A stretch of 64,000 nucleotides of DNA. It comes from Dromaius novaehollandiae (lineage: Eukaryota > Chordata > Aves > Casuariiformes > Dromaiidae). A program made the translations under genes and the position numbers. This document shows, in pieces, positions 19,041 through 64,000 of this stretch (position 1 is its first letter; each line of letters starts with the position of its first letter). The notes under the pieces were generated by a model. That model saw only the letters and a program-made list of their open reading frames with translations, did no database searches and had not been told where the DNA came from. The stretch is from NCBI RefSeq assembly GCF_036370855.1, contig NC_088113.1:21906501-21970500 (forward strand), in the 5' to 3' direction.

Positions 19041-20365
19041 GTGTCACTGCCTCGCAAGGCCACTGCATGCAGGTACGTTTGACTACATCCGGCAGAAGAA
19101 ATGTAAGCCGAAGGATCAGGGCAAATAGCTGCTTGTCTAGGTTTGTTACCTAGCGACGCACTGGCAAAGCTTTTCATGAACACCCGTACTCGATCGAGTG
19201 CGTATTCATTCTGTGAATATTAATTACTGCCAGACCGCGTACGTCACTGATGCTTTAAAGCAAGTCCGTGGCGCTGGGGTAGCACGTGTAGTGGAGGCTA
19301 AATGCAATAATACCTCGTTTTGATGTTGTTCTCTTATACGAAAGCACTTGGAGCAGATTAAGACATTTCTCGTCCTATTTTGTTTATTGAGTGGGCCCTG
19401 ATACTGGGGAGAAGCTGCCATGAAGCAGACCTAGTAGTCAGCTTCCTTAGAGAAGGCATCTTGTCCTGTATTTGAGGGCTTCCGGTACGTTTTGACAGAC
19501 AGTAGTGAGTGACGGGTTTCCTTTGGACCCCCCAGGGAGCAGAAAGTTCTGCCGGGAAGGCAAAATGTTTCTTGCGGCTGGGTTGGAAGAAGCTGGCTGC
19601 TGATGCAAGGCAGTGACAATTCTGGGGAGTCGCGGGAAGTTTTGAAAAGACGGTCGTTCCCTTTTCTAGAAGGCTGTGCACTTCGGTTCCTAATAGCTGT
19701 AGTAATGAAGCCAGGTAAGCGTTCGGGAGGAGCCCAAGCCGTTTTTGTCTAGCGAGTATTGTGCAAGGGGGGCAGGAAAGCGCTGCGCCCTGCTCCTTGC
19801 TGCCCTCGCGTGTCTGAAAGGCGGCACTGCACGCGGGAGGGGGGGCGCGCATGCGCATTGCGTTCCGGCGCGCTGACTGCTGCCCTCGCGTGTCGACAAG
19901 GCAGCACTGCAGCCGCCGGCGGCCACCGCTGCGTACGGAGACCGTTGCGGGCAGCCGGCGCACACGTGCGCGCTGCCGGTCGCCGTGTTGGCCGCTACTC
20001 TGCGCTCTCTCGGGGACGGGTAAGCGCAGGGGCCGCGCTCGTGCCCCCTGCCCGGTGCTCACGGACCGGGAGCGCTTTTCCCGAGAGGGCTTTTCCTTCT
20101 CGGTGCTTCCTGGGGGCGCGGGGACGGGCAGTGCCGTCTCGGAGCTGCTCCGCGGCGCTCTCTCCCCGGGGCAGCCCCAGCGCCTGCTCGCTGAAGCCCG
20201 CCGCTCTCTCGGGCGCGGGCAGAGCAGCCTCGGGGCGCTCGCTGCTCGGCCTGAGCGCCGGGGTGGCGCGGCGGGCTGCGGTTGGCGCGCGGGAGCCGGC
20301 CGGCTGCAGCGTGGCGCTGCGACCACGCGAGGGCGCCATTGCGGGTCTGGCCTGCCTCGCGCTCC

Positions 20366-20555
20366 GCTCCCCCGCCCCTCGCGCTCCCCCCGCCCCTCGC
20401 GCTGCGCTCCCCCGCCCCTCGCGCTCCCCCCGCCCCTCGCGCTCCGCTCCCCCGCCCCTCGCGCTCCCCCGCCCCTCGCGCTCCCCCCGCCCCTCGCGCT
20501 CCCCCCGCCCCTCGCGCTCCCCCCGCCCCTCGCGCTCCCCCGCCCCTCTCTCGCG
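20366..20555 (+). repeat. GC-box minisatellite, unit A (~10 copies)
   Basis: 18-, 22- and 23-bp variants built on CCCCCGCCCCTCGCGCT. Each copy holds a CCCCGCCCC box of the Sp1/KLF type. Confidence 0.9.
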
Positions 20556-20572
20556 GTCCTGGGCCGCGCACG

Positions 20573-20667
20573 CTCGGTGCGGCGGCGCGAGCCCTGGGCG
20601 GCCGGCGCACGCGCGGTGCGGCGGCGCGAGCCCTGGGCGGCCGGCGCACGCGCGGTGCGGCGGCGGG
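20573..20667 (+). repeat. 39-bp NRF1-like minisatellite, unit A (2 copies)
   Basis: Copies are GAGCCCTGGGCGGCC followed by GGCGCACGCGCGGTGCGG. The GCGCACGCGCG core fits the NRF1 consensus except for the first base; the first element here is degenerate (CGCACGCTCG). Confidence 0.88.
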
Positions 20668-20679
20668 CAAGATGGCGGC
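20668..20679 (+). promoter_or_regulatory. YY1-type initiator element, unit A
   Basis: CAAGATGGCGGC is a perfect YY1 promoter element. It lies directly after the NRF1-like minisatellite and about 80 bp before a splice donor, the place expected for a CpG-island transcription start on the plus strand. The start itself is inferred. Confidence 0.7.
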
Positions 20680-22104
20680 GAGCAGGGCGGGTGTTTTGGC
20701 TGGACGGCGGCGGGCGAGGGCAGAGGCGGGCTGGAGTCGAGCATGTGGGGGCCGCGGTGAGGCGAGGTGAGGCGAGCGTGTGCCTTCGGGTGGCCGCGGG
20801 TGTCGGGCTGTGTCCTGCCAGCCGGGGCCGTCGCTGCGTGGAGGCGGCGGGGCGGGGGGCGGGGAGTCGGGCCGGGGGCCGCGCCGGGTCTGCGCGGCGC
20901 CGGGTCTGCCGGAGCGCGGCTCTGACTCTCCCTTTTGCGTGTGTCGCCTGTAGGGCCCCGGTTCCTCCCCAGCGCGGGCCGGGGCGTGCGCTCGCCCCTG
21001 CGGACGCAGCCTGGAGGAGTGTGTGTGGGGTGTCTGCGCGGGGGTCTGGATGTCTCTAGCAGCGGCACGGCAGCCTGATGCCTCCTCTCGTCTGGGACGC
21101 GGGGTCCTTGGGGAGTTCCCTGCTGCCTCCTCTGGCGTTCTCTGCGAGCTCATAGATCCCTCCACTTCCTCTCCCCCCCCCCCCCCCCCCGCCCCGCTCC
21201 CCTGTCTGGTGGGGTGGGAGACCGGTGGCTGCTCCCGCCGAGCTGAGAGCCACGTAGGGCACCCCTATGTGCTCGCTACGCATCTGGGATGGCGCCCCTG
21301 CCCTGAGGGCCCCGCAGAGTCCCACCCTTCCTGCAACCAGCCCCCCCAGAGCCATTAAACCACCCACAAATCTTGCCCCAACACCCCCACAGGCCCCAAA
21401 ACGCCTCCGAGCCCTGCCGCAATGTTGTCACTGACTCCAGACCTTCCCCTGCACTCTGTGCAAGGCCCCAAACATTCCTCAAACTGCTGCCAGACCCAGT
21501 GCCTGCAGCAGTGAGGCGTTCTAACAAAGATGGGGTGCGATGTGCGTCTCCGCCTCGACTCAGTCCCGCTTTAGAGAAACAGGAAGTTACAGCACTTCCT
21601 GGTGAAGAGTGTTGACGGGTGAATGTGCGGATGACAAAGAGACTTTTCTCTCTTTTCTTCTGAGCCGCCTCTCAGAAGCCTCTGTGTGTGCACGATGTGG
21701 CTGATCTGGGATAATCGTGCTGTGCGCAGTGCTTAAGGAGAACATTGCCCTAAAATGGAGGGCTAAGGAATAGCCTAAAAAACCTAAAAGGCTCGGGAAG
21801 AGCCAAAGAGAACACCGATGGGCTCTGGGAAGCCCCAGTGATGCTAGCGAAAACAGCGTGGCTTTTAGGCACCTCCTCAGAGCAGCAGCAATGTCTCGCT
21901 CCAGCCTATGGGACAATGGGGACTCTTAATTACCGCCTTGAATTACCACAAGTGTTGCAAAAGCAGAAGGGACTAGGGAGCATGCAGAGCAGGTTATGGA
22001 CTATATGTCAAGTTTAAACAAGCAACAAGCCCCTCTGCAAACAGAAACAGGTTTAGCCCTAAGTAATAGACGAAGGTAGCTGTGAGTGACGTGAAGCGAA
22101 GCGG

Positions 22105-22112
22105 TGACGTCA
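22105..22112. promoter_or_regulatory. Perfect CRE palindrome, unit A
   Basis: TGACGTCA inside the larger near-palindrome GGTGACGTCAGTCACC, about 80 bp before the 128-bp predicted exon. It occurs once per unit (29499-29506 in B), in the sequence leading the subrepeat block and not in internal copies. Confidence 0.55.
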
Positions 22113-22202
22113 GTCACCCCGAAAGCCTCGGAGAAGCGGTCTGAAAATCTGGTACCCTCGCGACCTCGGCAGTCTTTTTGGTTTGTTTGGCAGGGTAGCC
22201 CA

Positions 22203-22967
22203 CCGAAGGGGGACATCTCGAAGAGAAGCAGCAAGACCTGGGGATCCGGTGGTTCATTTTGGTCGTCGCCTGTGAGGCCAGCATGCAAGAGTAAGAGGAA
22301 GCTAGGAGCAGTCTCAAAAAGGTAATAGGTTTGAAAGGGAGACAGGCAAATCGAGGGCTGTCATTCCTCCACGTAGTTAAAGACCGAGAGAGTTGTCGGT
22401 TAAGCGCATGCATACGAGGGTTTGCGAACAGTACCAATAACACTGAAGCGGAATAAAAATAAGGTTTCGTGGAAGATGGCATTAGGTAGGTATTAGGCGA
22501 CGTGCCCGCCTGCCTAATAACCTAGCCCTAATTGCTGTGTGTAACGTTTCCAGACCGTTTACCCTGCAACGTATGGTGCAAAGTGCCGTATTAAGACCTT
22601 TCCCTTAAGGAAAAGAAGAAGGAAAAAAGAAAAAAAAGGGGGAAAAAGAAAACAGGGTAAAGAGAAAAAGATCATGCATAAACCTAAGCGTTTCACTGGA
22701 AGTAAAACGCGAGTTTATCGCTTCCTTACAGAGATGGAACCAAGGACAGCAAATGCTGACGAGGAGAAGAGACGGACGAGCGTTTGCTTGCGGTTAATAC
22801 CGAAGGGACGGGATGAAACAAGGAAGCCAGAATGCAGCGGCCCCTCGATATCACCAGGAACTGCTACAGGAGGAGGCGTTCTGGCACGGGTAACTAGGGT
22901 AAGTATCGCTAATGACCATTAGCAGTTATTTTGGCCTCCCCGAGGCAGCGCTGAGGACTGAGTAACC
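22203..22967 (+). repeat. 924/933-bp subrepeat, single copy, unit A
   Basis: One partial-length copy containing the predicted exon 22732-22898. It starts at CCGAAGGGGGACATC, where the first copy in every unit diverges from the internal copies, and ends at GAGTAACC. Confidence 0.92.
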
Positions 22968-23032
22968 TGAGGGGCTCTGGCCTGGGTTAGGGCAGAAGTG
23001 CAGGCAGGCGCGATCAGGCATTTTCCTCTCAG

Positions 23033-23180
23033 CTCTCCAAGCTGAATCCTAGCCCTGAAGGAAAAAGCACTGGGGGGAGGCTACTCGGACACCTGCCACG
23101 TCGAGGGCAGGGGCAGGAGCTGACCCTTCCCCGACGGACGGACAGACGCTGGTGCGGCGGTGACTCTTTGGATATCGTAG
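23033..23180 (+). ncRNA. Predicted exon after the subrepeat, unit A
   Basis: 148 bp between acceptor CATTTTCCTCTCAG and donor TAG/GTAAGG. Equivalents of 156 bp are 32285-32440 (B), 41410-41565 (C), 51572-51727 (D) and 60722-60877 (E); the 8-bp difference is two tetramers in the GACG/GACA run. Confidence 0.45.
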
Positions 23181-23838
23181 GTAAGGGGAGGCACGCTGGT
23201 GCCGAGCTCCAGGGCGGTTTGCCTGAACACGATGCCCGGGGCAGGAGGTTACGCATTGTGTCCGGGGCTGGGAGCTGGTCCCCGAGTCCCATGTACTTGG
23301 GAGTGCCTGCGCTTGCCAGGGAGCCCGGTGCTGTTCCCAGAGCTGTGGGGAATTTCCCTTGCGTTGCCTGGACCCTCGGGGCTCTTGGGGGTGTTTCCCC
23401 TCATCGCAAGGGCAGCCAGAGCCCCTCCAGGGCTGCGTGAGGTCCCCGAACCGCTCCCGGATTTGCTTTTGGCACTCCGCAGTGTCGCTCGTGTGCCTGG
23501 GGCAGCCTGCAGGCGCCATCCTGTCAGCCGCGTTGAGCCCTGCGGCGTGCCTGGTGACCCCTCTGGTGTGCGCCAAGGCCCTTCCTCTGTATTTTGGTCT
23601 GCCCCAGAGCCCTGCACTTGCCCTCTGATGCCCTCAGGACCCCTCAGTTCACATTCTGGGTTGCCCCCGAGCCCTCTGCGTGCCTTTCGGTGCGCCCCGT
23701 GGCCCCGTGTGTGTTTTGCGGCATGCCGCAGAGGTCTCTGTTTAGCTTTTTCTCCTGTCCTGGAGTTTTCTGGGTGCTTCTGGGTGTGCCCCAGGGCCCT
23801 CCTTTTGGTGCCCCCAGAGTCACTCTGTTTGCTCTATC

Positions 23839-23842
<4 letters not shown>

Positions 23843-23879
<37 letters not shown>

Positions 23880-24295
23880 CTTGACTTGTGTTGCACCCAG
23901 AGCTCTCGATTTGTTCTCTTGTGCTCCGCATACTCCCCTTTCCGCACTCTACACCCCAGGCAGGGCTCTCCCTTCAGCTCTCAGCAAGCTGCTGTCAGGA
24001 GAGTGGGGGTGCCTCTGCTGCCCTGGCAGCCCCAGCTGTCCCTGAAGGGGCTGATGGCCAGGCCCCCTGCCCAGTTCCTGCAGGCCCACAGCTGCGGGCC
24101 CTGGGGCTGGGATGAATGCCAGGGGGAGCTGGGTGGCAGGACAGGCCCCAGGTGGGGCTGATGGCAAGGGCAGGCCCACATTTGGGGGCTGGGGCCGCAG
24201 TTGGGGGGAGCTGGCGCTGGGGCAGGAGCTGGGCAGCGGAGCTGCCGCGGAGCACGGCCCTTCGGGACCAGCCCGGCGGCCGCCCCGCGGAGGAG
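23843..24295 (+). ncRNA. Poly(T) tract and predicted exon, unit A
   Basis: A T run of 37 (23843-23879) precedes TTGCACCCAG, giving a very long pyrimidine tract and acceptor (exon start 23901). The exon would end at donor GAGGAG/GTGAGC (24295), 395 bp. Unit B equivalent: 33162-33556. T-run lengths are about 37, 38, 42, 37 and 40 in units A-E. Confidence 0.4.
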
Positions 24296-24729
24296 GTGAG
24301 CGGGGCCGGGGGAGGCGCACTGCAGGCTGCGGGTCCCGCATGTGCCGGGGGTCCCGGCGGCTGGGAGCGTCCCGGGGCCACGGAGGCGGGGGGAGGAAGG
24401 GGGTGCGCCGGGGCTGTGGTGCGGTTTACTGCGCGGTCGGAGGAGCGCGGGGGGGGGGTCTCCTGTGTCAGCTCGGGAGCGTGTCGGGGAGCGGGGGGAG
24501 GAGGGTCGTGGAGGGGCGGGGGCAGTGTCGGAGCTGAGGCGGGGCCGGTCGCGGGGGTGTCGGGGGAGCCCCGGGCCGGTGGTGGGGCTGGCGGGGCCGC
24601 GCTCGGGGCTCTGCGGCCGTTTCCGGGGGGGACAGGGGGGAAGGGGAAGGGGGGCGGGACGGAAAGGAACGGAATGTGCCGAGGGTCAAAGGTGCCCCAG
24701 CGCTGCGGGTGGGGGGCGGGAGTTGGGGT

Positions 24730-24980
24730 GCGGGAATGCGGGGAGCCGTAGCTTTCGGCGCGGCATGCCGGGAGCAGTAGTCTTCCGGCACTGGGCTTCC
24801 GGTGGGGCCTGTTTGTTCTGAGCGCGGCATGCTGGGAGCGGTAGTCTTCCGGCACTGGGCTTCCGGGCGGCCATGTTGCTTGGCATGGCATGCCGGGAGC
24901 AGTAGTCTTCCGGCACTGGGCTTCCGGGCCGCCCTTTTCGCGTGCACGGTATGCTGGGAGGTGTAGTCTTCTCAGGCGGG
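24730..24980. promoter_or_regulatory. Four-module ZNF143/ETS-like promoter cluster, unit A
   Basis: Sites GCATGCCGGGAGCAGTAG (24763), GCATGCTGGGAGCGGTAG (24827), GCATGCCGGGAGCAGTAG (24888) and GTATGCTGGGAGGTGTAG (24949) sit 61-64 bp apart. On the minus strand they read ACTAC..CTCCCAGCATGC, the ZNF143 (Staf) SBS motif with 2-3 mismatches of 19. A fifth, weaker site is at 24735. Each of the first three is followed by two CTTCCGG ETS-type cores. Such pairs mark strong, often bidirectional, CpG-island promoters. Confidence 0.75.
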
Positions 24981-25401
24981 GCTACTGGGTGACCATGCTG
25001 CGCCTCTCGAGGTGGCCCCGCGGGGGGGGCGGCGGCGGCGGCGGCAGGTCCCTGCCAGCGGGGTTCCCAGCAGGCGGCCGCGTGGCAGGCCAGGAGCTGT
25101 AGTGCCCGCTGGGTCTGTTCCTTACTGGACATGTGTCACTCACGCCTGAGTCCCCACAGGTCACGGGGGACAGTGGAATGCCCCTGTTTTTCCCCGGTAC
25201 AGGGCAGGAAGTGTTTTCCATCTCCGATGGTGTTGCAAGACAACCTTGGAAGCTCAGAAAGAGTGTTCCTGCTGTTTAAACTAGGCAGATGAGGAGAACC
25301 CCCCCCCCCCATTTCCTGGGAGGAAATAATTCTTTAATCAAGGCCATGCTAGAAGTGCTAAAGCCTTAAAGAAATAGTAAATCAAAATGTTTTGTTTTCT
25401 A

Positions 25402-25798
25402 TGTAGACGTTGCCAATTTAGCAAAGGAATTCGAGGTATCCCCGAACTGAACTGTCCTCATTATAATACAAGAAAATCACGCCCATAGGTCAGAAAGACC
25501 TGTGCCCGGGTGAAGACCCCTCCCCTGAGCATGCGTAGTTTTAAAATGGCGTGTAAGCAATATTAGAATTGTATGTAAATCACTAACCAACCGGTGTAAG
25601 AGGGAAAGTTGCAAACCTTGCAACTTGTATAAATGCTACTTGGAAAGCCGGGGCGGGGGGGGGGAGTTGCGCTTGATTTGTGGGGAAAACACCGAGCAGC
25701 CAGGCTTGCACAACTCTGAAATAAATAAGCAAATGTCTCTCCTGAGCGTGTCATTATTGGCTTAGTGCACAGCGGGCAACGAATCCGCTTTTCGGACA
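25402..25798 (+). mobile_element. Solo LTR-like fossil, avian ERV, unit A
   Basis: About 397 bp from TGTAG to GGACA, with a TATAAATGCT box, an AATAAATAAG polyadenylation-type signal and a C-rich 3' end typical of bird endogenous retrovirus LTRs. No internal retroviral region and no convincing target-site duplication were seen. Ends are approximate and the family is not certain. It predates the amplification because every unit has it at the same place. Confidence 0.5.
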
Positions 25799-26078
25799 GC
25801 AGCGTGACCAGGCAGGGTTGTCCCCGGGGGCTGGGGCTGTCCCTCTTGGAAATGGGGAGGGCGGGAAGAGTAGGAGGGGTGCTGCGGGCTCCTGGGGGTC
25901 GTAGCTTTGCTCAGGATTGGGGCCGGTTAGGCAGCTGCTGGGAGGAGTGGCGGTGCTGGGAGGGCACGGTGCGGAGCTGTCCTGCTGTGCAGCGCAAGGG
26001 AAAGTCGACCAGCACCGTTGCTGTCCGAGGACCCTGGAACAGCCCGAGAGACCCTGGAACAGCCACCCCACGGACACC

Positions 26079-27033
26079 GTGTCACTGCCTCGCAAGGCCA
26101 CCGCATGCAGGTACGTTTGACTACATCCGGCAGAAGAAATGTAAGCCGAAGGATCAGGGCAAATAGCTGCTTGTCTAGGTTTGTTACCTAGCGACGCACT
26201 GGCAAAGCTTTTTATGAACACCCGTACTCGATCGAGTGCGTATTCATTCTGTGAATATTAATTACTGCCAGACCGCGTACGTCACTGATGCTTTAAAGCA
26301 AGTCCGTGGCGCTGGGGTAGCACGTGTAGTGGAGGCTAAATGCAATAATACCTCGTTTTGATGTTGTTCTCTTATACGAAAGCACTTGGAGCAGATTAAG
26401 ACATTTCTCGTCCTATTTTGTTTATTGAGTGGACCCTGATACTGGGGAGAAGCTGCCGTGAAGCAGACCTAGTAGTCAGCTTCCTTAGAGAAGGCGTCTT
26501 GTCCTGTATTTGAGGGCTTCCGGTACGTTTTGACAGACAGTAGTGAGTGACGGGTTTCCTTTGGACCCCCCGGGGAGCAGAAAGTTCTGCCGGGAAGGCA
26601 AAATGTTTCTTGCGGCTGGGTTGGAAGAAGCTGGCTGCTGATGCAAGGCAGTGACAATTCTGGGGAGTCGCGGGAAGTTTTGAAAAGACGGTCGTTCCCT
26701 TTGCTAGAAGGCTATGCACTTCGGTTCCTAATAGCTGCAGTAATGAAGCCAGGTAAGCGTTCGGGAGGAGCCCAAGCCGTTTTTGTCTAGCGAGTATTTT
26801 GCAAGGGGGGCAGGAAAGCGCTGCGCCCTGCTCCTTGCTGCCCTCGCGTGTCTGAAAGGCGGCACTGCACGCGGGAGGGGGGCGCGCTCACGGCTGCCCT
26901 CGCGTGTCGACAAGGCAGCACTGCAGCCGCCGGCGGCCACCGCTGCGTACGGAGACCGTAGCGGGCAGCCGGCGCACACGTGCGCGCTGCCGGTCGCCGT
27001 GTTGGCCGCTACTCTGCGCTCTCTCGGGGACGG
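26079..27033 (+). ncRNA. Three predicted splice donors at the unit start, unit B
   Basis: Plus-strand donors GCAG/GTACGT (exon end 26110), CCAG/GTAAGC (26752) and GACGG/GTAAGC (27033), with equivalents in unit A at 19072, 19714 and 20019. The last lies in a CpG-rich block with a CACGTG E-box in each unit (19963-19968 in unit A) and could end an alternative first exon. Acceptors for the first two are unclear. Confidence 0.4.
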
Positions 27034-27372
27034 GTAAGCGCAGGGGCCGCGCTCGTGCCCCCTGCCCGGTGCTCACGGACCGGGAGCGCTTTTCCCGAGA
27101 GGGCTTTTCCTTCTCGGTGCTTCCTGGGGGCGCGGGGACGGGCAGTGCCGTCTCGGAGCTGCTCCGCGGCGCTCTCTCCCCGGGGCAGCCCCAGCGCCTG
27201 CTCGCTGAAGCCCGCCGCTCTCTCGGGCGCGGGCAGAGCAGCCTCGGGGCGCTCGCTGCTCGGCCTGAGCGCCGGGGTGGCGCGGCGGGCTGCGGTTGGC
27301 GCGCGGGAGCCGGCCGGCTGCAGCGCGGCGCTGCGACCACGCGAGGGTGGGGCCATTGCGGGTCTGGCCTGC

Positions 27373-27630
27373 CTCGCGCTCCGCTCCCCCCGCCCCTCGC
27401 GCTCCCCCCGCCCCTCGCGCTGCGCTCCCCCGCCCCTCGCGCTGCGCTCCCCCGCCCCTCGCGCTCCCCCCGCCCCTCGCGCTCCGCTCCCCCCGCCCCT
27501 CGCGCTCCGCTCCCCCCGCCCCTCGCGCTCCGCTCCCCCCGCCCCTCGCGCTCCGCTCCCCCCGCCCCTCGCGCTCCGCTCCCCCCGCCCCTCGCGCTCC
27601 CCCCGCCCCTCGCGCTCCCCCCGCCCCTCT
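27373..27630 (+). repeat. GC-box minisatellite, unit B (~12 copies)
   Basis: Same minisatellite; the 23-bp form (CGCTCCGCT spacer) prevails in the right half. Confidence 0.9.
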
Positions 27631-27644
27631 CGCGCGGTCCTGGG

Positions 27645-28061
27645 CCGGCGCACGCGCGGTGCGGCGGCGCGAGCCCTGGGCGGCCGGCGCACGCGCGGTG
27701 CGGCGGCGCGAGCCCTGGGCGGCCGGCGCACGCGCGGTGCGGCGGCGCGAGCCCTGGGCGGCCGGCGCACGCGCGGTGCGGCGGCGCGAGCCCTGGGCGG
27801 CCGGCGCACGCGCGGTGCGGCGGCGCGAGCCCTGGGCGGCCGGCGCACGCGCGGTGCGGCGGCGCGAGCCCTGGGCGGCCGGCGCACGCGCGGTGCGGCG
27901 GCGCGAGCCCTGGGCGGCCGGCGCACGCGCGGTGCGGCGGCGCGAGCCCTGGGCGGCCGGCGCACGCGCGGTGCGGCGGCGCGAGCCCTGGGCGGCCGGC
28001 GCACGCGCGGTGCGGCGGCGCGAGCCCTGGGCGGCCGGCGCACGCGCGGTGCGGCGGCGGG
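27645..28061 (+). repeat. 39-bp NRF1-like minisatellite, unit B (10 copies)
   Basis: Ten perfect 39-bp periods (GAGCCC at 27671 through 28022) and 11 GCGCACGCGCG cores. Confidence 0.92.
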
Positions 28062-28073
28062 CAAGATGGCGGC
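28062..28073 (+). promoter_or_regulatory. YY1-type initiator element, unit B
   Basis: Identical CAAGATGGCGGC element in the same context. Confidence 0.7.
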
Positions 28074-28545
28074 GAGCAGGGCGGGTGTTTTGGCTGGACG
28101 GCGGCGGGCGAGGGCAGAGGCGGGCTGGAGTCGAGCATGTGGGGGCCGCGGTGAGGCGAGGTGAGGCGAGCGTGTGCCTTCGGGTGGCCGCGGGTGTCGG
28201 GCTGTGTCCTGCCAGCCGGGGCCGTCGCTGCGTGGAGGCGGCGGGGCTGGGGGAGGGGGGAGTCGGGCCGGGGGCCGCGCCGGGTCTGCGCGGCGCCGGG
28301 TCTGCCGGAGCGCGGCTCTGACTCTCCCTTTTGCGTGTGTCGCCTGTAGGGCCCCGGTTCCTCCCCAGCGCGGGCCGGGGCGTGCGCTCGCCCCTGCGGA
28401 CGCAGCCTGGAGGAGTGTGTGTGGGGTGCCTGCGCGGGGGTCTGGATGTCTCTAGCAGCGGCACGGCAGCCTGATGCCTCCTCTCGTCTGGGACGCGGGG
28501 TCCTTGGGGAGTTCCCTGCTGCCTCCTCTGGCGTTCTCTGCGAGC
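28062..28545 (+). ncRNA. Predicted first exon, 199-bp intron and second exon, unit B
   Basis: From the YY1 element an exon runs to donor CCGCG/GTGAGG (exon end 28150). A 199-bp intron ends at a pyrimidine-rich acceptor, CGCCTGTAG (exon start 28350). The same intron is 20757-20953 in unit A. Spliced, the ATG inside the YY1 element opens a frame of about 69 codons ending in TGA shortly after 28470; no homology is recognised. The right end given is arbitrary. Whether the product is coding is unknown. Confidence 0.5.
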
Positions 28546-29587
28546 TCATAGATCCCTCCACCTCCTCTCCCCCCCCCCCCCCCCGCCCCGCTCCCCTGTC
28601 TGGTGGGGTGGGAGACCGGTGGCTGCTCCCGCCGAGCTGAGAGCCACGTAGGGCACCCCTATGTGCTCGCTACGCATCTGGGATGGCACCCCTGCCCTGA
28701 GGGCCCCGCAGAGTCCCACCCTTCCTGCAACCAGCCCCCCCAGAGCCATTAAACCACCCACAAATCCTGCCCCAACACCCCCACAGGCCCCAAAACGCCT
28801 CCGAGCCCTGCCGCAATGTTGTCACTGACTCCAGACCTTCCCCTGCACTCTGTGCAAGGCCCCAAACATTCCTCAAACTGCTGCCAGACCCAGTGCCCGC
28901 AGCAGTGAGGCGTTCTAACAAAGATGGGGTGCGATGTGCGTCTCCGCCTCGACTCAGTCCCGCTTTAGAGAAACAGGAAGTTACAGCACTTCCTGGTGAA
29001 GAGTGTTGACGGGTGAATGTGCGGATGACAAAGAGACTTCTCTCTCTTTTCTTCTGAGCCGCCTCTCAGAAGCCTCTGTGTGTGCACGATGTGGCTGATC
29101 TGGGATAATCGTGCTGTGCGCAGTGCTTAAGGAGAACATTGCCCTAAAATGGAGGGCTAAGGAATAGCCTAAGAAACCTAAAAGGCTCGGGAAGAGCCAA
29201 AGAGAACACCGATGGGCTCTGGGAAGCCCCAGTGATGCTAGCGAAAACAGCGTGGCTTTTAGGCACCTCCTCAGAGCAGCAGCAATGTCTCGCTCCAGCC
29301 TATGGGACAATGGGGACTCTTAATTACCGCCTTGAATTACCACAAGTGTTGCAAAAGCAGAAGGGACTAGGGAGCATGCAGAGCAGGTTATGGACTATAT
29401 GTCAAGTTTAAACAAGCAACAAGCCCCTCTGCAAACAGAAACAGGTTTAGCCCTAAGTAATAGACGAAGGTAGCTGTGAGTAACGTGAAGCGAAGCGGTG
29501 ACGTCAGTCACCCCGAAAGCCTCGGAGAAGCGGTCTGAAAATCTGGTACCCTCGCGACCTCGGCAGTCTTTTTGGTTTGTTTGGCAG

Positions 29588-33098: not shown

Positions 33099-33140
<42 letters not shown>

Positions 33141-52385: not shown

Positions 52386-52426
<41 letters not shown>

Positions 52427-53277: not shown

Positions 53278-53528
53278 GCGGGAATGCGGGGAGCCGTAGC
53301 TTTCGGCGCGGCATGCCGGGAGCAGTAGTCTTCCGGCACTGGGCTTCCGGTGGGGCCTGTTTGTTCTGAGCGCGGCATGCTGGGAGCGGTAGTCTTCCGG
53401 CACTGGGCTTCCGGGCGGCCATGTTGCTTGGCATGGCATGCCGGGAGCAGTAGTCTTCCGGCACTGGGCTTCCGGGCCGCCCTTTTCGCGTGCACGGTAT
53501 GCTGGGAGGTGTAGTCTTCTCAGGCGGG
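53278..53528. promoter_or_regulatory. ZNF143/ETS-like promoter cluster, unit D
   Basis: Same four modules. Confidence 0.75.
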
Positions 53529-54346: not shown

Positions 54347-55931
54347 GCAGCGTGACCAGGCAGGGTTGTCCCCGGGGGCTGGGGCTGTCCCTCTTGGAAA
54401 TGGGGAGGGCGGGAAGAGTAGGAGGGGTGCTGCGGGCTCCTGGGGGTCGTAGCTTTGCTCAGGATTGGGGCCGGTTAGGCAGCTGCTGGGAGGAGTGGCG
54501 GTGCTGGGAGGGCACGGTGCGGAGCTGTCCTGCTGTGCAGCGCAAGGGAAAGTCGACCAGCACCGTTGCTGTCCGAGGACCCTGGAACAGCCCGAGAGAC
54601 CCTGGAACAGCCACCCCACGGACACCGTGTCACTGCCTCGCAAGGCCACCGCATGCAGGTACGTTTGACTACATCCGGCAGAAGAAATGTAAGCCGAAGG
54701 ATCAGGGCAAATAGCTGCTTGTCTAGGTTTGTTACCTAGCGACGCACTGGCAAAGCTTTTTATGAACACCCGTACTCGATCGAGTGCGTATTCATTCTGT
54801 GAATATTAATTACTGCCAGACCGCGTACGTCACTGATGCTTTAAAGCAAGTCCGTGGCGCTGGGGTAGCACGTGTAGTGGAGGCTAAATGCAATAATACC
54901 TCGTTTTGATGTTGTTCTCTTATACGAAAGCACTTGGAGCAGATTAAGACATTTCTCGTCCTATTTTGTTTATTGAGTGGACCCTGATACTGGGGAGAAG
55001 CTGCCGTGAAGCAGACCTAGTAGTCAGCTTCCTTAGAGAAGGCGTCTTGTCCTGTATTTGAGGGCTTCCGGTACGTTTTGACAGACAGTAGTGAGTGACG
55101 GGTTTCCTTTGGACCCCCCGGGGAGCAGAAAGTTCTGCCGGGAAGGCAAAATGTTTCTTGCGGCTGGGTTGGAAGAAGCTGGCTGCTGATGCAAGGCAGT
55201 GACAATTCTGGGGAGTCGCGGGAAGTTTTGAAAAGACGGTCGTTCCCTTTGCTAGAAGGCTATGCACTTCGGTTCCTAATAGCTGCAGTAATGAAGCCAG
55301 GTAAGCGTTCGGGAGGAGCCCAAGCCGTTTTTGTCTAGCGAGTATTTTGCAAGGGGGGCAGGAAAGCGCTGCGCCCTGCTCCTTGCTGCCCTCGCGTGTC
55401 TGAAAGGCGGCACTGCACGCGGGAGGGGGGCGCGCTCACGGCTGCCCTCGCGTGTCGACAAGGCAGCACTGCAGCCGCCGGCGGCCACCGCTGCGTACGG
55501 AGACCGTAGCGGGCAGCCGGCGCACACGTGCGCGCTGCCGGTCGCCGTGTTGGCCGCTACTCTGCGCTCTCTCGGGGACGGGTAAGCGCAGGGGCCGCGC
55601 TCGTGCCCCCTGCCCGGTGCTCACGGACCGGGAGCGCTTTTCCCGAGAGGGCTTTTCCTTCTCGGTGCTTCCTGGGGGCGCGGGGACGGGCAGTGCCGTC
55701 TCAGAGCTGCTCCGCGGCGCTCTCTCCCCGGGGCAGCCCCAGCGCCTGCTCGCTGAAGCCCGCCGCTCTCTCGGGCGCGGGCAGAGCAGCCTCGGGGCGC
55801 TCGCTGCTCGGCCTGAGCGCCGGGGTGGCGCGGCGGGCTGCGGTTGGCGCGCGGGAGCCGGCCGGCTGCAGCGCGGCGCTGCGACCACGCGAGGGTGGGG
55901 CCATTGCGGGTCTGGGCTGCCTCGCGCTGCC

Positions 55932-56264
55932 CTCCCCCCGCCCCTCGCGCTCCCCCCGCCCCTCGCGCTGCGCTCCCCCGCCCCTCGCGCTGCGCTCCCC
56001 CGCCCCTCGCGCTGCGCTCCCCCGCCCCTCGCGCTGCGCTCCCCCGCCCCTCGCGCTGCGCTCCCCCGCCCCTCGCGCTGCGCTCCCCCGCCCCTCGCGC
56101 TGCGCTCCCCCGCCCCTCGCGCTGCGCTCCCCCGCCCCTCGCGCTCCCCCCGCCCCTCGCGCTCCGCTCCCCCCGCCCCTCGCGCTCCGCTCCCCCCGCC
56201 CCTCGCGCTCCGCTCCCCCCGCCCCTCGCGCTCCCCCCGCCCCTCGCGCTCCCCCCGCCCCTCT
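55932..56264 (+). repeat. GC-box minisatellite, unit E (~16 copies)
   Basis: Expanded for the 22-bp form (CGCTGCGCT spacer) in its left half, unlike unit D, showing independent expansion. Confidence 0.9.
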
Positions 56265-56278
56265 CGCGCGGTCCTGGG

Positions 56279-56500
56279 CCGGCGCACGCGCGGTGCGGCG
56301 GCGCGAGCCCTGGGCGGCCGGCGCACGCGCGGTGCGGCGGCGCGAGCCCTGGGCGGCCGGCGCACGCGCGGTGCGGCGGCGCGAGCCCTGGGCGGCCGGC
56401 GCACGCGCGGTGCGGCGGCGCGAGCCCTGGGCGGCCGGCGCACGCGCGGTGCGGCGGCGCGAGCCCTGGGCGGCCGGCGCACGCGCGGTGCGGCGGCGGG
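56279..56500 (+). repeat. 39-bp NRF1-like minisatellite, unit E (5 copies)
   Basis: Five periods (GAGCCC 56305 to 56461) and six NRF1-like cores. Confidence 0.92.
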
Positions 56501-56512
56501 CAAGATGGCGGC
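56501..56512 (+). promoter_or_regulatory. YY1-type initiator element, unit E
   Basis: Identical CAAGATGGCGGC element in the same context. Confidence 0.7.
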
Positions 56513-58033
56513 GAGCAGGGCGGGTGTTTTGGCTGGACGGCGGCGGGCGAGGGCAGAGGCGGGCTGGAGTCGAGCATGTGGGGGCCGCGGTGAGGCGAGG
56601 TGAGGCGAGCGTGTGCCTTCGGGTGGCCGCGGGTGTCGGGCTGTGTCCTGCCAGCCGGGGCCGTCGCTGCGTGGAGGCGGCGGGGCTGGGGGAGGGGGGA
56701 GTCGGGCCGGGGGCCGCGCCGGGTCTGCGCGGCGCCGGGTCTGCCGGAGCGCGGCTCTGACTCTCCCTTTTGCGTGTGTCGCCTGTAGGGCCCCGGTTCC
56801 TCCCCAGCGCGGGCCGGGGCGTGCGCTCGCCCCTGCGGACTCAGCCTGGAGGAGTGTGTGTGGGGTGCCTGCGCGGGGGTCTGGATGTCTCTAGCAGCGG
56901 CACGGCAGCCTGATGCCTCCTCTCGTCTGGGACGCGGGGTCCTTGGGGAGTTCCCTGCTGCCTCCTCTGGCGTTCTCTGCGAGCTCATAGATCCCTCCAC
57001 CTCCTCTCCCCCCCCCCCCCCGCCCCGCTCCCCTGTCTGGTGGGGTGGGAGACCGGTGGCTGCTCCCGCCGAGCTGAGAGCCACGTAGGGCACCCCTATG
57101 TGCTCGCTACGCATCTGGGATGGCACCCCTGCCCTGAGGGCCCCGCAGAGTCCCACCCTTCCTGCAACCAGCCCCCCCAGAGCCATTAAACCACCCACAA
57201 ATCCTGCCCCAACACCCCCACAGGCCCCAAAACGCCTCCGAGCCCTGCCGCAATGTTGTCACTGACTCCAGACCTTCCCCTGCACTCTGTGCAAGGCCCC
57301 AAACATTCCTCAAACTGCTGCCAGACCCAGTGCCCGCAGCAGTGAGGCGTTCTAACAAAGATGGGGTGCGATGTGCGTCTCCGCCTCGACTCAGTCCCGC
57401 TTTAGAGAAACAGGAAGTTACAGCACTTCCTGGTGAAGAGTGTTGACGGGTGAATGTGCGGATGACAAAGAGACTTCTCTCTCTTTTCTTCTGAGCCGCC
57501 TCTCAGAAGCCTCTGTGTGTGCACGATGTGGCTGATCTGGGATAATCGTGCTGTGCGCAGTGCTTAAGGAGAACATTGCCCTAAAATGGAGGGCTAAGGA
57601 ATAGCCTAAGAAACCTAAAAGGCTCGGGAAGAGCCAAAGAGAACACCGATGGGCTCTGGGAAGCCCCAGTGATGCTAGCGAAAACAGCGTGGCTTTTAGG
57701 CACCTCCTCAGAGCAGCAGCAATGTCTCGCTCCAGCCTATGGGACAATGGGGACTCTTAATTACCGCCTTGAATTACCACAAGTGTTGCAAAAGCAGAAG
57801 GGACTAGGGAGCATGCAGAGCAGGTTATGGACTATATGTCAAGTTTAAACAAGCAACAAGCCCCTCTGCAAACAGAAACAGGTTTAGCCCTAAGTAATAG
57901 ACGAAGGTAGCTGTGAGTAACGTGAAGCGAAGCGGTGACGTCAGTCACCCCGAAAGCCTCGGAGAAGCGGTCTGAAAATCTGGTACCCTCGCGACCTCGG
58001 CAGTCTTTTTGGTTTGTTTGGCAGGGTAGCCCA

Positions 58034-60656
58034 CCGAAGGGGGACATCTCGAAGAGAAGCAGCAAGACCTGGGGATCCGGTGGTTCATTTTGGTCGTCGC
58101 CTGTGAGGCCAGCATGCAAGAGTAAGAGGAAGCTAGGAGCAGTCTCAAAAAGGTAATAGGTTTGAAAGGGAGACAGGCAAATCGAGGGCTGTCGTTCCTC
58201 CACGTAGTTAAAGACCGAGAGAGTTGTGGGTTAAGCGCATGCATACGAGGGTTTGCGAACAGTAACAATAACACTGAAGCGGAATAAAAATAAGGTTTCG
58301 TGGAAGATGGCGTTAGGAAGGTATTAGGCGACGTGCCCGCCTGCCTAATAACCTAGCCCTAATTGCTGTGTGTAACGTTTCCAGACCGTTTACCCTGCAA
58401 CGTATGGTGCAAAGTGCCATATTAAGACCTTTCCCTTAAGGAAAAGAAGAAGGAAAAAAAGAAAAAAAAGGGGGAAAAAGAAAACAGGGTAAAGAGAAAA
58501 AGATCATGCATAAACCTAAGCGTTTCACTGGAAGTAAAACGCGAGTTTATCGCTTCCTTACAGATATGGAACCGAGGACAGCAAATGCTGACGAAGAGAA
58601 GAGACGGACGAGCGTTTGCTTGCGGTTAATACCGAAGGGACGGGATGAAACAAGGAAGCCAGAATGCAGCGGCCCCTCGATATCACCAGGAACTGCTACA
58701 GGAGGAGGCGTTCTGGCACGGGTAACTAGGGTAAGTATCGCTAATGACCGTTAGCAGTTATTTCGGCCTCCCCGAGGCAGCGCTGAGGACTGAGTAACCC
58801 GTTCCTACCCTGTGGCTGCTGTTGCCTGTATCTGCCTTAGCTTTGCTTTGGCTGTTTCTGTTTTGTTTTGTTATCGTACGCACAGCTACGGAAAGGAATA
58901 GATGTCATACTTACTTTTTTAGATTAATTGCCACGGCTGAAGTTGAAGAGACCAAGAAACGTAAGCCCCGAAGGGGCACATCTTGAAGAGAGGGGGCTAG
59001 ACCTAGCGATCCAGTTGTTCGTTTTGGTCGTCGCCTGTGAGGCCAGCATGCAAGAGTAAGAGGAAGCTAGGAGCAGTCTCAAAAAGGTAATAGGTCTGAA
59101 AGGGAGACAGGCAAATCGAGGGCTGTCATTCCTCCACGTAGTTAAAGACCGAGAGAGTTGTCGGTTAAGCGCATGCATACGAGGGTTTGCGAACAGTACC
59201 AATAACACTGAAGCGGAATAAAAATAAGGTTTCGTGGAAGATGGCGTTAGGAAGGTATTAGGCGACGTGCCCGCCTGCCTAATAACCTAGCCCTAATTGC
59301 TGTGTGTAACGTTTCCAGACCGTTTACCCTGCAACGTATGGTGCAAAGTGCCGTATTAAGACCTTTCCCTTAAGGAAAAGAAGAAGGAAAAAAGGGGGAA
59401 AAAGAAAACAGGGTAAAGAGAAAAAGATCATGCATAAACCTAAGCGTTTCACTGGAAGTAAAACGCGAGTTTATCGCTTCCTTACAGAGATGGAACCAAG
59501 GACAGCAAATGCTGACGAGGAGAAGAGACGGACGAGCGTTTGCTTGCGGTTAATACCGAAGGGACGGGATGAAACAAGGAAGCCAGAATGCAGCGGCCCC
59601 TCGATATCACCAGGAACTGCTACAGGAGGAGGCGTTCTGGCACGGGTAACTAGGGTAAGTATCGCTGATGACCGTTAGCAGTTATTTCGGCCTCCCCGAG
59701 GCAGCGCTGAGGACTGAGTAACCCGTTCCTACCCTGTGGCTGCTGTTGCCTGTATCTGCCTTAGCTTTGCTTTGGCTGTTTCTGTTTTGTTTTGTTATCG
59801 TACACGCAGCTACGGAAAGGAATAGATGTCATACTTACTTTTTTAGATTAATTGCCACGGCTGAAGTTGAAGAGACCAAGAAACGTAAGCCCCGAAGGGG
59901 CACATCTTGAAGAGAGGGGGCTAGACCTAGCGATCCAGTTGTTCGTTTTGGTCGTCGCCTGTGAGGCCAGCATGCAAGAGTAAGAGGAAGCTAGGAGCAG
60001 TCTCAAAAAGGTAATAGGTTTGAAAGGGAGACAGGCAAATCGAGGGCTGTCATTCCTCCACGTAGTTAAAGACCGAGAGAGTTGTCGGTTAAGCGCATGC
60101 ATACGAGGGTTTGCGAACAGTACCAATAACACTGAAGCGGAATAAAAATAAGGTTTCGTGGAAGATGGCGTTAGGAAGGTATTAGGCGACGTGCCCGCCT
60201 GCCTAATAACCTAGCCCTAATTGCTGTGTGTAACGTTTCCAGACCGTTTACCCTGCAACGTATGGTGCAAAGTGCCGTATTAAGACCTTTCCCTTAAGGA
60301 AAAGAAGAAGGAAAAAAGAAAAAAAAGGGGGAAAAAGAAAACAGGGTAAAGAGAAAAAGATCATGCATAAACCTAAGCGTTTCACTGGAAGTAAAACGCG
60401 AGTTTATCGCTTCCTTACAGAGATGGAACCAAGGACAGCAAATGCTGACGAGGAGAAGAGACGGACGAGCGTTTGCTTGCGGTTAATACCGAAGGGACGG
60501 GATGAAACAAGGAAGCCAGAATGCAGCGGCCCCTCGATATCACCAGGAACTGCTACAGGAGGAGGCGTTCTGGCACGGGTAACTAGGGTAAGTATCGCTA
60601 ATGACCGTTAGCAGTTATTTCGGCCTCCCCGAGGCAGCGCTGAGGACTAAGTAACC
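58034..60656 (+). repeat. 924/933-bp subrepeat block, 3 copies, unit E
   Basis: Equivalent positions 58506, 59430 and 60363. Confidence 0.95.
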
Positions 60657-61535
60657 TGAGGGGCTCTGGCCTGGGTTAGGGCAGAAGTGCAGGCAGGCGG
60701 GATCAGGCATTTTCCTCTCAGCTCTCCAAGCTGAATCCTAGCCCTGAAGGAAAAAGCACTGGGGGGAGGCTACTCGGACACCTGCCACGTCGAGGGCAGG
60801 GGCAGGAGCTGACCCTTCCCCGACGGACGGACGGACAGACAGACGCTGGTGCGGCGGTGACTCTTTGGATATCGTAGGTAAGGGGAGGCACGCTGGTGCC
60901 GAGCTCCAGGGCGGTTTGCCTGAACACGATGCCCGGGGCAGGAGGTTACGCATTGTGTCCGGGGCTGGGAGCTGGTCCCCGAGTCCCATGTACTTGGGAG
61001 TGCCTGCGCTTGCCAGGGAGCCCGGTGCTGTTCCCAGAGCTGCGGGGAATTTCCCTTGCGTTGCCTGGACCCTCGGGGCTCTTGGGGGTGTTTCCCCTCA
61101 TCGCAAGGGCAGCCGGAGCCCCTCCAGGGCTGCGTGAGGTCCCCGAACCGCTCCCGGATTTGCTTTTGGCACTCCGCAGTGTCGCTCGTGTGCCTGGGGC
61201 AGCCTGCAGGCGCCATCCTGTCAGCCGCGTTGAGCCCTGCGGCGTGCCTGGTGACCCCTCTGGTGTGCGCCAAGGCCCTTCCTCTGTATTTTGGTCTGCC
61301 CCAGAGCCCTGCACTTGCCCTCTGATGCCCTCAGGACCCCTCAGTTCACATTCTGGGTTGCCCCCGAGCCCTCTGCGTGCCTTTCGGTGCGCCCCGTGGC
61401 CCCGTGTGTGTTTTGCGGCATGCCGCAGAGGTCTCTGTTTAGCTTTTTCTCCTGTCCTGGAGTTTTCTGGGTGCTTCTGGGTGTGCCCCAGGGCCCTCCT
61501 TTTGGTGCCCCCAGAGTCACTCTGTTTGCTCTATC

Positions 61536-61579
<44 letters not shown>

Positions 61580-62428
61580 CTTGACTTGTGTTGCACCCAG
61601 AGCTCTCGATTTGTTCTCTTGTGCTCCGCATACTCCCCTTTCCGCACTCTACACCCCAGGCAGGGCTCTCCCTTCAGCTCTCAGCAAGCTGCTGTCAGGA
61701 GAGTGGGGGTGCCTCTGCTGCCCTGGCAGCCCCAGCTGTCCCTGAAGGGGCTGATGGCCAGGCCCCCTGCCCAGTTCCTGCAGGCCCACAGCTGCGGGCC
61801 CTGGGGCTGGGATGAATGCCAGGGGGAGCTGGGTGGCAGGACAGGCCCCAGGTGGGGCTGATGGCAAGGGCAGGCCCACATTTGGGGGCTGGGGCCGCAG
61901 TTGGGGGGAGCTGGCGCTGGGGCAGGAGCTGGGCAGCGGAGCTGCCGCGGAGCACGGCCCTTCGGGACCAGCCCGGCGGCCGCCCCGCGGAGGAGGTGAG
62001 CGGGGCCGGGGGAGGCGCACTGCAGGCTGCGGGTCCCGCATGTGCCGGGGGTCCCGGCGGCTGGGAGCGTCCCGGGGCCACGGAGGCGGGGGGAGGAAGG
62101 GGGTGCGCCGGGGCTGCGGTGCGGTTTACTGCGCGGTCGGAGGAGCGCGGGGGGGGGGTCTCCTGTGTCAGCTCGGGAGCGTGTCGGGGAGCGGGGGGAG
62201 GAGGGTCGTGGAGGGGCGGGGGCAGTGTCGGAGCTGAGGCGGGGCCGGTCGCGGGGGTGTCGGGGGAGCCCCGGGCCGGTGGTGGGGCTGGCGGGGCCGC
62301 GCTCGGGGCTCTGCGGCCGTTTCCGGGGGGACAGGGGGGAAGGGGAAGGGGGGCGGGACGGAAAGGAACGGAATGTGCCGAGGGTCAAAGGTGCCCCAGC
62401 GCTGCGGGTGGGGGGCGGGCGTTGGGGT

Positions 62429-62679
62429 GCGGGAATGCGGGGAGCCGTAGCTTTCGGCGCGGCATGCCGGGAGCAGTAGTCTTCCGGCACTGGGCTTCCG
62501 GTGGGGCCTGTTTGTTCTGAGCGCGGCATGCTGGGAGCGGTAGTCTTCCGGCACTGGGCTTCCGGGCGGCCATGTTGCTTGGCATGGCATGCCGGGAGCA
62601 GTAGTCTTCCGGCACTGGGCTTCCGGGCCGCCCTTTTCGCGTGCACGGTATGCTGGGAGGTGTAGTCTTCTCAGGCGGG
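62429..62679. promoter_or_regulatory. ZNF143/ETS-like promoter cluster, unit E
   Basis: Same four modules; surrounding bases carry the C/E class variants. Confidence 0.75.
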
Positions 62680-63104
62680 GCTACTGGGTGACCATGCTGC
62701 GCCTCTCGAGGTGGCCCCGCGGGGGGGGCGGCGGCGGCGGCGGCGGCAGGTCCCTGCCAGCGGGGTTCCCAGTAGGCGGCCGCGTGGCAGGCCAGGAGCT
62801 GTAGTGCCCGCTGGGTCTGTTCCTTACTGGACATGTGTCACTCACGCCTGAGTCCCCACAGGTCACGGGGGACAGTGGAATGCCCCTGTTTTTCCCCGGT
62901 ACAGGGCAGGAAGTGTTTTCCATCTCCGATGGTGTTGCAAGACAACCTTGGAAGCTCAGAAAGAGTGTTCCTGCTGTTTAAACTAGGCAGATGAGGAGAA
63001 ACCCCCCCCCCCCATTTCCTGGGAGGAAATAATTCTTTAATCAAGGCCATGCTAGAAGTGCTAAAGCCTTAAAGAAATAGTAAATCAAAATGTTTTGTTT
63101 TCTA

Positions 63105-63499
63105 TGTAGACGTTGCCAATTTAGCAAAGGAATTCGAGGTATCCCCGAACTGAACTGTCCTCATTATAATACAAGAAAATCACGCCCATAGGTCAGAAAG
63201 ACCTGTGCCCGGGTGAAGACCCCTCCCCTGAGCATGCGTAGTTTTAAAATGGCGTGTAAGCAATATTAGAATTGTATGTAAATCACTAACCAACCGGTGT
63301 AAGAGGGAAAGTTGCAAACCTTGCAACTTGTATAAATGCTACTTGGAAAGCCGGGGCGGGGGGGGAGTTGCGCTTGATTTGTGGGGAAAACACCGAGCAG
63401 CCAGGCTTGCACAACTCTGAAATAAATAAGCAAATGTCTCTCCTGAGCGTGTCATTATTGGCTTAGTGCACAGCGGGCAACGAATCCGCTTTTCGGACA
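63105..63499 (+). mobile_element. Solo LTR-like fossil, unit E
   Basis: Same element, 395 bp, as in unit C. Confidence 0.5.
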
Positions 63500-63779
63500 G
63501 CAGCGTGACCAGGCAGGGTTGTCCCCGGGGGCTGGGGCTGTCCCTCTTGGAAATGGGGAGGGCGGGAAGAGTAGGAGGGGTGCTGCGGGCTCCTGGGGGT
63601 CGTAGCTTTGCTCAGGATTGGGGCCGGTTAGGCAGCTGCTGGGAGGAGTGGCGGTGCTGGGAGGGCACGGTGCGGAGCTGTCCTGCTGTGCAGCGCAAGG
63701 GAAAGTCGACCAGCACCGTTGCTGTCCGAGGACCCTGGAACAGCCCGAGAGACCCTGGAACAGCCACCCCACGGACACC

Positions 63780-64000
63780 GTGTCACTGCCTCGCAAGGCC
63801 ACCGCATGCAGGTACGTTTGACTACATCCGGCAGAAGAAATGTAAGCCGAAGGATCAGGGCAAATAGCTGCTTGTCTAGGTTTGTTACCTAGCGACGCAC
63901 TGGCAAAGCTTTTTATGAACACCCGTACTCGATCGAGTGCGTATTCATTCTGTGAATATTAATTACTGCCAGACCGCGTACGTCACTGATGCTTTAAAGC
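63780..64000 (+). repeat. Array unit F, first 221 bp only
   Basis: Starts with the same unit-start string and continues to the window edge, so the array extends further right. Confidence 0.95.

Follow-up and report, generated by a model that had tools for sequence, protein, structure and literature searches.

A tandem array of large CpG-rich units near the right end of contig 16 (C16; NC_088113.1, 22.15 Mb) of the emu, Dromaius novaehollandiae, appears to represent a recently homogenised subtelomeric macrosatellite family that probably makes noncoding RNA directed toward the telomere. The array was analysed in a stretch of 64,000 nucleotides, bases 21,906,501-21,970,500 of C16, which is referred to here as the window; positions are counted from its first base unless a contig coordinate is indicated. 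The family occupies at least 13 contig ends, unlike a macrosatellite with a single locus such as DXZ4. Why does such an array matter? Few parts of vertebrate genomes are as poorly assembled as the subtelomeres. An outward-facing repeat with two promoter-like islands that carry motifs of vertebrate housekeeping factors is a testable candidate source of RNA from bird chromosome ends. It also provides an independent case for comparison with human D4Z4 and with the promoters of human telomeric repeat-containing RNA (TERRA).

Array structure and chromosome-end position

Self-alignment of the window showed that 19041-63779 consists of five complete head-to-tail units on the plus strand and that a sixth unit starts at 63780. 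Unit 1 (19041-26078; 7038 bp) forms the proximal edge of the array and has an abrupt border with CpG-poor DNA. Unit 2 (26079-35339; 9261 bp) was used as the reference. It is followed by unit 3 (35340-44470; 9131 bp), unit 4 (44471-54626; 10156 bp), unit 5 (54627-63779; 9153 bp), and the first bases of unit 6 (63780-64000). An earlier reading of the letters alone (the sequence-only reading) had described five full, nearly identical head-to-tail units in an array that does not end in the window, and both points were borne out. The array runs 34.6 kb beyond the window, and in its entirety comprises nine units in 79.6 kb, from 21,925,541 to 22,005,146 of C16. The units vary in length due to a 924-934 bp subrepeat (1, 3, 3, 4, and 3 copies in units 1-5), a 39-bp minisatellite (2.7, 10.7, 7.7, 5.1, and 5.7 copies), and an adjoining ~23-bp minisatellite. 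Across all nine units on C16, the subrepeat is present in 1, 3, 3, 4, 3, 3, 2, 3, and 4 copies.

Apart from these repeats the units are close to identical. With minisatellites excluded, units 2-5 mutually differ at 0-4 positions both in the last third (~3,110 compared) and in the middle part (~1,607 compared). Unit 1 differs from units 2-5 at 10-11 of ~1,606 middle positions and at 11-14 of 1,236 positions in the first part. The last third of the unit is the same at all 3110 positions in units 2 and 4 and shows 1 difference in 3114 between units 3 and 5, versus 3 in 3108 between units 2 and 3. This pattern hints at duplication of a two-unit block. Divergence was also determined among near-complete copies in the contig pieces compared (17-48 copies per segment). 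The mean pairwise difference was 0.01-0.72% for copies on one chromosome and 0.45-1.15% for copies on different chromosomes, with a maximum of 2.2%. In other words, homogenisation has taken place inside arrays and, in recent time, across chromosome ends.

The distribution of the family was obtained by searching the assembly (271 contigs, 1.468 Gb) with 26079-29000 as the query. The contig sizes (219, 170, 132, and 88 Mb down to under 10 Mb) are in keeping with a bird genome, as are the CR1-like fragment and the transglutaminase gene found in the window. The search gave 87 rows from the 40 of 679 candidates that were scored, and the census of units is therefore a lower bound. An identity of 90% or more was found for 75/87 rows. 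These lay in plus orientation near the right ends of C8, C11, C13, and C16, and in minus orientation near the left ends of C1, C2, C7, C14, and C19 or on an unplaced contig of 0.21 Mb (C231). The remaining 12 rows, which were 67-71% identical on the opposite strand and covered the minisatellite region alone, were dropped. Pieces taken from contig ends revealed that the left ends of C1, C2, and C16 begin within the array in minus orientation. A further 40 one-kilobase contig ends were checked, and three of them were inside the array, each in the predicted orientation (C10 left, minus; C3 right, plus; C15 right, plus). The other 37 comprised nine ends with telomere repeats, four that were all N, two with a 162-bp satellite, one that resembled C16 sequence next to the telomere, and 21 without a match to anything searched.

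Taken together, 12 large contigs carry the family at no fewer than 13 ends, at a distance of up to ~0.4 Mb, and its units point outward at 13/13 ends (two-sided sign test, 2 x 2^-13, ~0.0002). Presence at several chromosome ends in one uniform orientation places the array in a subtelomeric repeat family. However, the 13 ends are not independent and their polarity is no proof of function, because exchange between subtelomeres preserves polarity. Telomere repeats were present at five of the 13 array-bearing ends: TTAGGG at the right ends of C16, C13, C11, and C8, and CCCTAA at the left end of C7. They were not seen at the other eight, six of which end inside the array (C1, C2, C10, and C16 left; C3 and C15 right), while for the left ends of C14 and C19 no telomere was present in the contig-end piece examined.

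On C16, the telomere begins ~134 kb past the array. A stretch that spans the array edge (22,003,207-22,010,500 of C16) is 99.4% identical to a stretch of C13. About 5.9 kb past the array there is a partial, diverged copy of the unit (D1, CpG island 2, and D4) that is 66-85% identical, and beyond this partial copy lies the satellite. The satellite has a period of 162 bp and is CpG-poor. It is located distal to the macrosatellite on C16 (L017 5539-10000) and C13 (L019) and is common to several contig ends, since it also occurs on C14 (L023), on C231 (L025), at the left end of C3 (L039), and at the right end of C26 (L078).

Is the array a macrosatellite? PMC3218863 defines a macrosatellite as a tandem repeat with a unit from 2 kb to more than 12 kb long, present at one or two genomic locations, whose copy number varies between individuals. 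The units of 7.0-10.2 kb, arranged in tandem, lie within this size range. The family is nevertheless not restricted to one or two locations, because it is found at no fewer than 13 contig ends. The label of macrosatellite given in the sequence-only reading therefore holds for a large, GC- and CpG-rich, promoter-like tandem unit but not for its distribution.

CpG islands, motif clusters, and candidate exons

The array differs sharply from the adjoining DNA in CpG content. The observed/expected CpG ratio per kilobase is 0.06-0.25 over the 19 kb preceding the array versus 0.44-1.08 within it. When 500-bp intervals matched for GC content (0.44-0.52) were compared, the mean ratio was 0.84 in the array (35 intervals, minimum 0.45) versus 0.17 in the flank (7 intervals, maximum 0.26). 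Each unit had been said to contain two CpG-rich, promoter-like blocks, and both were confirmed; they are called CpG island 1 and CpG island 2, and their coordinates are given for unit 2. The motif sites found in them (NRF1, YY1, and others) are taken to be putative. Most motif hits arose by duplication of a minisatellite repeat, a subrepeat, or a whole unit, and represent few independent events.

CpG island 1 (27000-28160, plus strand) is a putative telomere-facing promoter. The GC content over 27000-28560 is 0.81. The island contains a ~23-bp minisatellite (27372-27618), the 39-bp minisatellite (27643-28059), and, at its distal end, a YY1-type site (AAGATGGCG at 28063). Every copy of the 39-bp minisatellite carries the NRF1 core GCGCACGCGC, which occurs 11 times in unit 2 versus 0.07 times in shuffles of that unit. 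The five units of the window have 4, 11, 7, 5, and 6 cores. There are four YY1-type sites in unit 2 versus 0.085 in shuffles, and every subrepeat copy has one. The site at 28063 has the sense orientation that is common for this motif at transcription starts.

CpG island 2 (33451-34420) harbors a 61-bp minisatellite (34018-34232) together with ZNF143/THAP11-like and ETS-type sites. Four ZNF143/THAP11-like sites on the minus strand (34024, 34088, 34149, and 34210) have 0-1 mismatch, and a fifth, weaker site (34346) has two. The same five are present per unit (two with 0, two with 1, and one with 2 mismatches), so that the window has 25 sites at up to 2 mismatches versus 0.02 expected; these 25 reflect few independent events, given that the units duplicate one another and that the minisatellite contains four of the five sites. 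Six ETS-type sites were found in CpG island 2 versus 0.19 expected in the island. PMC7154149 describes ACTACA as a submotif of ZNF143 and THAP11. The idea that the ZNF143 block is specially conserved was dropped, as the first copy matched at 38/40 positions and the second at 32/40 against a local background of mostly ~80-90%, in an alignment that misplaced D4 and yielded no figure for it.

Distal to CpG island 2 there is an insert of ~575 bp resembling a long terminal repeat (LTR; 34488-35062, plus strand). It carries a TATAAA (34889) and an AATAAA (34981), and an exact target-site duplication of 4-6 bases was looked for and not found. The insert is lacking in the diverged D1 - CpG island 2 - D4 copies on C16, C13, and C14 (L017 545-3353; L018 8193-10000 together with L019 1-999; L023 7868-10000), which thus display an empty site. 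Since these copies are near-identical to each other, they amount to one independent comparison. The diverged block perhaps represents an ancestral chromosome-end element. Part of the LTR-like insert resembles two proteins encoded on ENA contigs (P0004-P0005; 63-66% over about half of a 115-residue query), and the neighboring residues of these two proteins differ, as expected for a dispersed element.

The subrepeat array of unit 2 (29669-32228, plus strand) consists of three copies of 934, 924, and, for the last one, 702 bp. Its GC content is 0.48 and its CpG ratio 0.93, and TpG/CpA are not in excess. Two candidate exons were recognised on the plus strand in this region. X1 (29588-29715; 128 nt) is present once per unit (5/5) and has a strong acceptor and a donor that scores below 9. 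X2 (30127-30293; 167 nt) recurs at 31051-31217 and 31984-32150. It is flanked by a strong acceptor and a strong donor, and its borders are intact in all 14 subrepeats of the window.

How far do the splice signals exceed chance? They were scored with approximate matrices in one collapsed unit versus shuffles. At a score of 8.5 or more, the plus strand had 8 donors versus 4.7 expected (P 0.12) and 7 acceptors versus 3.9 (P 0.10). At a score of 10 there were 3 donors versus 1.2 (P 0.11) and 4 acceptors versus 1.2 (P 0.045). Exon-like pairs on the plus strand at three thresholds numbered 7 versus 1.9 (P 0.03), 1 versus 0.37 (P 0.285), and 1 versus 0.03 (P 0.025). The minus strand gave 2 pairs versus 1.5, 1 versus 0.3, and 0 (P 0.25-1). 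In a separate count, the minus strand also had more acceptors than shuffles, 11 versus 5.7 expected (standard deviation 2.9), but 1 donor versus 2.0. The series of plus-strand splice signals noticed earlier does recur in every unit, which follows from the units being copies, but it is weak against shuffles. Splicing on the plus strand is plausible from these signals.

Proposed origin and transcription of the unit

The following model is considered probable. The D1 - CpG island 2 - D4 block, an older element of chromosome ends, would have taken an LTR insertion and, at some point, would have been joined to the segment with CpG island 1 and the subrepeats, creating a chimeric ~9-kb unit. This unit would have multiplied head-to-tail through unequal exchange and spread between chromosome ends by subtelomeric exchange that kept its telomere-ward polarity. 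RNA polymerase II would most likely start in CpG island 1, with its NRF1 minisatellite and a YY1-type site at the start, and proceed telomere-ward. The transcript may optionally be spliced via the repeated X2 exon, and the poly(A) signal of the LTR would end the noncoding RNA within the unit. CpG island 2 could serve as a second promoter or as a ZNF143-type chromatin contact site. By analogy with human TERRA promoters, for which PMC6600276 reports this, binding of NRF1 would be sensitive to methylation. It is conceivable, if unlikely, that birds, independently of primates, evolved NRF1-driven CpG-minisatellite promoters that fire telomere-ward and were multiplied into macrosatellites, and that the resulting RNAs or TERRA act in chromosome-end chromatin or in the organization of meiotic or oocyte chromosomes.

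Several observations weigh against regular transcription of the unit. The uniform polarity may just reflect how subtelomeres exchange DNA. The longer NRF1 form, YGCGCAYGCGC, has no match in the unit. ETS-type sites over the whole unit number 7 versus 2.3 expected, and shuffles reach 9. Splice signals exceed chance weakly, with one of the three pair thresholds giving a null result. Furthermore, transitions at CpG sites were 4.5 times as frequent as at other G:C sites (70/744 versus 53/2523, Fisher P 7e-17), a ratio somewhat inflated because CpG in a single copy sufficed for a site to be counted as CpG. The ratio in the window alone was 3.7 (20/928 versus 19/3269). From this excess we infer that the array is methylated for part of germ-line life, which suggests a state ill suited to a constantly open promoter. 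The retained CpGs and the excess of transitions would be compatible if the unit is young or partially methylated. Two neighboring segments considered as a methylation control gave discordant ratios of 9.1 and 1.45 on 11 and 38 transitions, too few to be used.

One alternative is that the array is an inert subtelomeric satellite whose promoter-like modules are relics carried by chromosome-end exchange and not regularly transcribed. Exchange between subtelomeres would by itself explain the spread and polarity of the family, and the CpG transitions as well as splice and open reading frame (ORF) signals close to chance agree with this explanation. It is nonetheless a doubtful one, because the CpG ratio is high at moderate GC content and motif sites are found in each of the five window units. 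Likewise, the diverged block retains two ZNF143-like and two ETS sites and has a CpG-rich island amid CpG-poor surroundings.

A second alternative is a special case of the transcribed-family model, and the two overlap in probability: transcription from CpG island 1 would reach the telomere and yield telomere-repeat RNA, as from a TERRA promoter. Human TERRA promoters are described in PMC6600276 and PMC12242772 as subtelomeric CpG islands of short GC-rich tandem repeats with putative NRF1 sites and telomere-ward transcription. Two such sites, both two nucleotides off the consensus, are found per 29-bp repeat (PMC6600276). To judge from these accounts, they are the closest functional analogue of the array, as telomere-facing CpG minisatellites with putative NRF1 sites are present in both. 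The array is likewise positioned at chromosome ends with outward polarity and contains a subtelomeric, GC-rich CpG island of short tandem repeats. An NRF1 core lies in each 39-bp repeat (4-11 putative sites per window unit, none in the longer form). The human promoters have 61-29-37 bp repeats and the emu unit has 39-, 29-, and 61-bp minisatellites, in another order and with a 29-bp repeat without CpG; the similarity in lengths is taken as coincidence. Unlike TERRA promoters, the promoter repeats of the array are inside a ~9-kb tandem unit with ZNF143/THAP11-like sites.

A start close to the telomere tract was not found on C16, where 134 kb, including the 162-bp satellite, separate the array from the telomere, and no CpG island lies in the last 3.5 kb before the C16 telomere. 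An AATAAA is present in every unit. Human TERRA promoters bind CTCF, according to PMC12242772, whereas CTCF sites are not clearly enriched here: a scan gave 24 consensus matches versus 16.8 expected (standard deviation 4.25), a number reached by 5/100 shuffles. None of the matches had fewer than two mismatches, and most duplicated a small number of sites. Three features argue against filing the array as a TERRA promoter: its distance from the telomere, the AATAAA of each unit, and the missing CTCF enrichment. Transcription through to the telomere is decidedly improbable.

Very unlikely is a multicopy array of protein-coding genes. A 125-residue frame in the subrepeat has three relatives on short ENA contigs (P0001-P0003) with 83-91% amino acid identity over 66% of the frame. 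However, the similarity continues through the predicted intron-exon border and, as far as can be told, is therefore at the DNA level. The frame is no longer than frames in shuffles (P 0.275-0.415), and X2 copies would break it, the lengths of X1 and X2 not being multiples of three. No ORF is clearly above chance in the unit. Forty-six ORFs of 90 residues or more overlap it, and the longest ORFs of five segments compared with dinucleotide shuffles had P values of 0.14, 0.23, 0.415, 0.275, and 0.065. A Pfam scan of 19 unit ORFs, some of which are below 90 residues or cross into unit 3, found no family at E up to 1 for 17 of them. One had a sub-threshold match to PAGK (E 0.084). The minisatellite ORF matched CHZ above the cut-off, with a best stretch of eight residues, and PCF11 repeat below the cut-off; both matches are taken as composition.

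Finally, a false tandem duplication in the assembly, which the very high identity of the units and the contigs ending within the array might suggest, is extremely unlikely, since the numbers of subrepeats and minisatellites vary between units, private variants are present, the C16 array is joined to other sequence at both edges, and the family is present on many contigs.

Related satellites and other features of the window

The sequence-only reading had likened the array to the mammalian macrosatellites D4Z4 and DXZ4; it mentioned neither TERRA promoters as an analogue nor the location of the family at many chromosome ends. The likeness to D4Z4 (human 4q/10q) stands in position. As described in PMC3218863, D4Z4 is a subtelomeric large-unit array that is itself expressed and has transcriptional elements in each unit. 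It differs in its 3.3-kb unit and DUX4 homeobox ORF; no homeobox was among the Pfam matches of the 19 unit ORFs. The likeness to DXZ4 is weak. DXZ4 has a tandem unit that is rich in GC, bears a promoter, and is not obviously coding (PMC3218863), but it is a single X-linked locus that binds CTCF, whereas the array is at many ends. A DXZ4-like design with a CTCF site per unit was rejected, as the 24 matches versus 16.8 expected are no clear enrichment.

Large-unit satellites are already known in birds. The chicken Z-macrosatellite has ~22-kb units over 9 Mb of the Z chromosome and is stated to be present only on Z (PMC4992247), is described as clustering at the termini of several chromosomes (PMC7397634), and is transcribed on lampbrush chromosomes of growing oocytes (PMC4301066). 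By these descriptions it resembles the emu array in being avian, in its large unit, and in its presence at several chromosome termini, and differs in the ~22-kb length of its units. A second example, crowSat1, is a 14-kb bird satellite and a suspected heterochromatin component (PMC6115840). It is alike by description as a large-unit satellite in a bird, and its suspected role in heterochromatin sets it apart. Word searches of the literature turned up no paper recognised as describing the array family, although such searches cannot settle if the sequence is in print.

Searches for other identities were negative within their scope. Rfam gave 0 matches, including 18S/5.8S/28S and 5S rRNA, and ribosomal DNA or another structured RNA was rejected on this result and a tRNA scan. 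No match was found in plasmids or, with 28560-36000 as the query, in phages. The possibility raised earlier that the unit is a known ribosomal RNA gene or vector sequence thus received no support. A viral relative of the subrepeat ORF was rejected, as none of 88 pattern matches was confirmed. Exact probes matched once (19 bases) and not at all (35 bases) in viral contigs, and three times (19 bases) in genome contigs; these four loci had no further similarity to the window. A homologue search with an A-region ORF found nothing. The short ENA contigs with relatives of the subrepeat ORF and the LTR-like insert are, at a guess, host DNA of other birds in metagenomes.

In the interior of C1, many interstitial (TTAGGG)6 matches occur at 27.67 Mb and 30.38-30.48 Mb, a few hundred bases to kilobases apart (among the first 100 places listed). 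They are perhaps a telomere-repeat-bearing satellite far from ends. To the left of the array, the window contains part of a transglutaminase gene on the minus strand (1104-2885), with three exon-like stretches, two of which match Pfam Transglut_N. Its closest relative in PDB is transglutaminase E. The gene leaves the window leftward, with its 5' side toward the array. A reverse-transcriptase fragment, also on the minus strand (5823-6505), matches Pfam RVT_1 at 6185-6505 just under the cut-off (E 2.3e-6) and reads like a CR1 long interspersed nuclear element.

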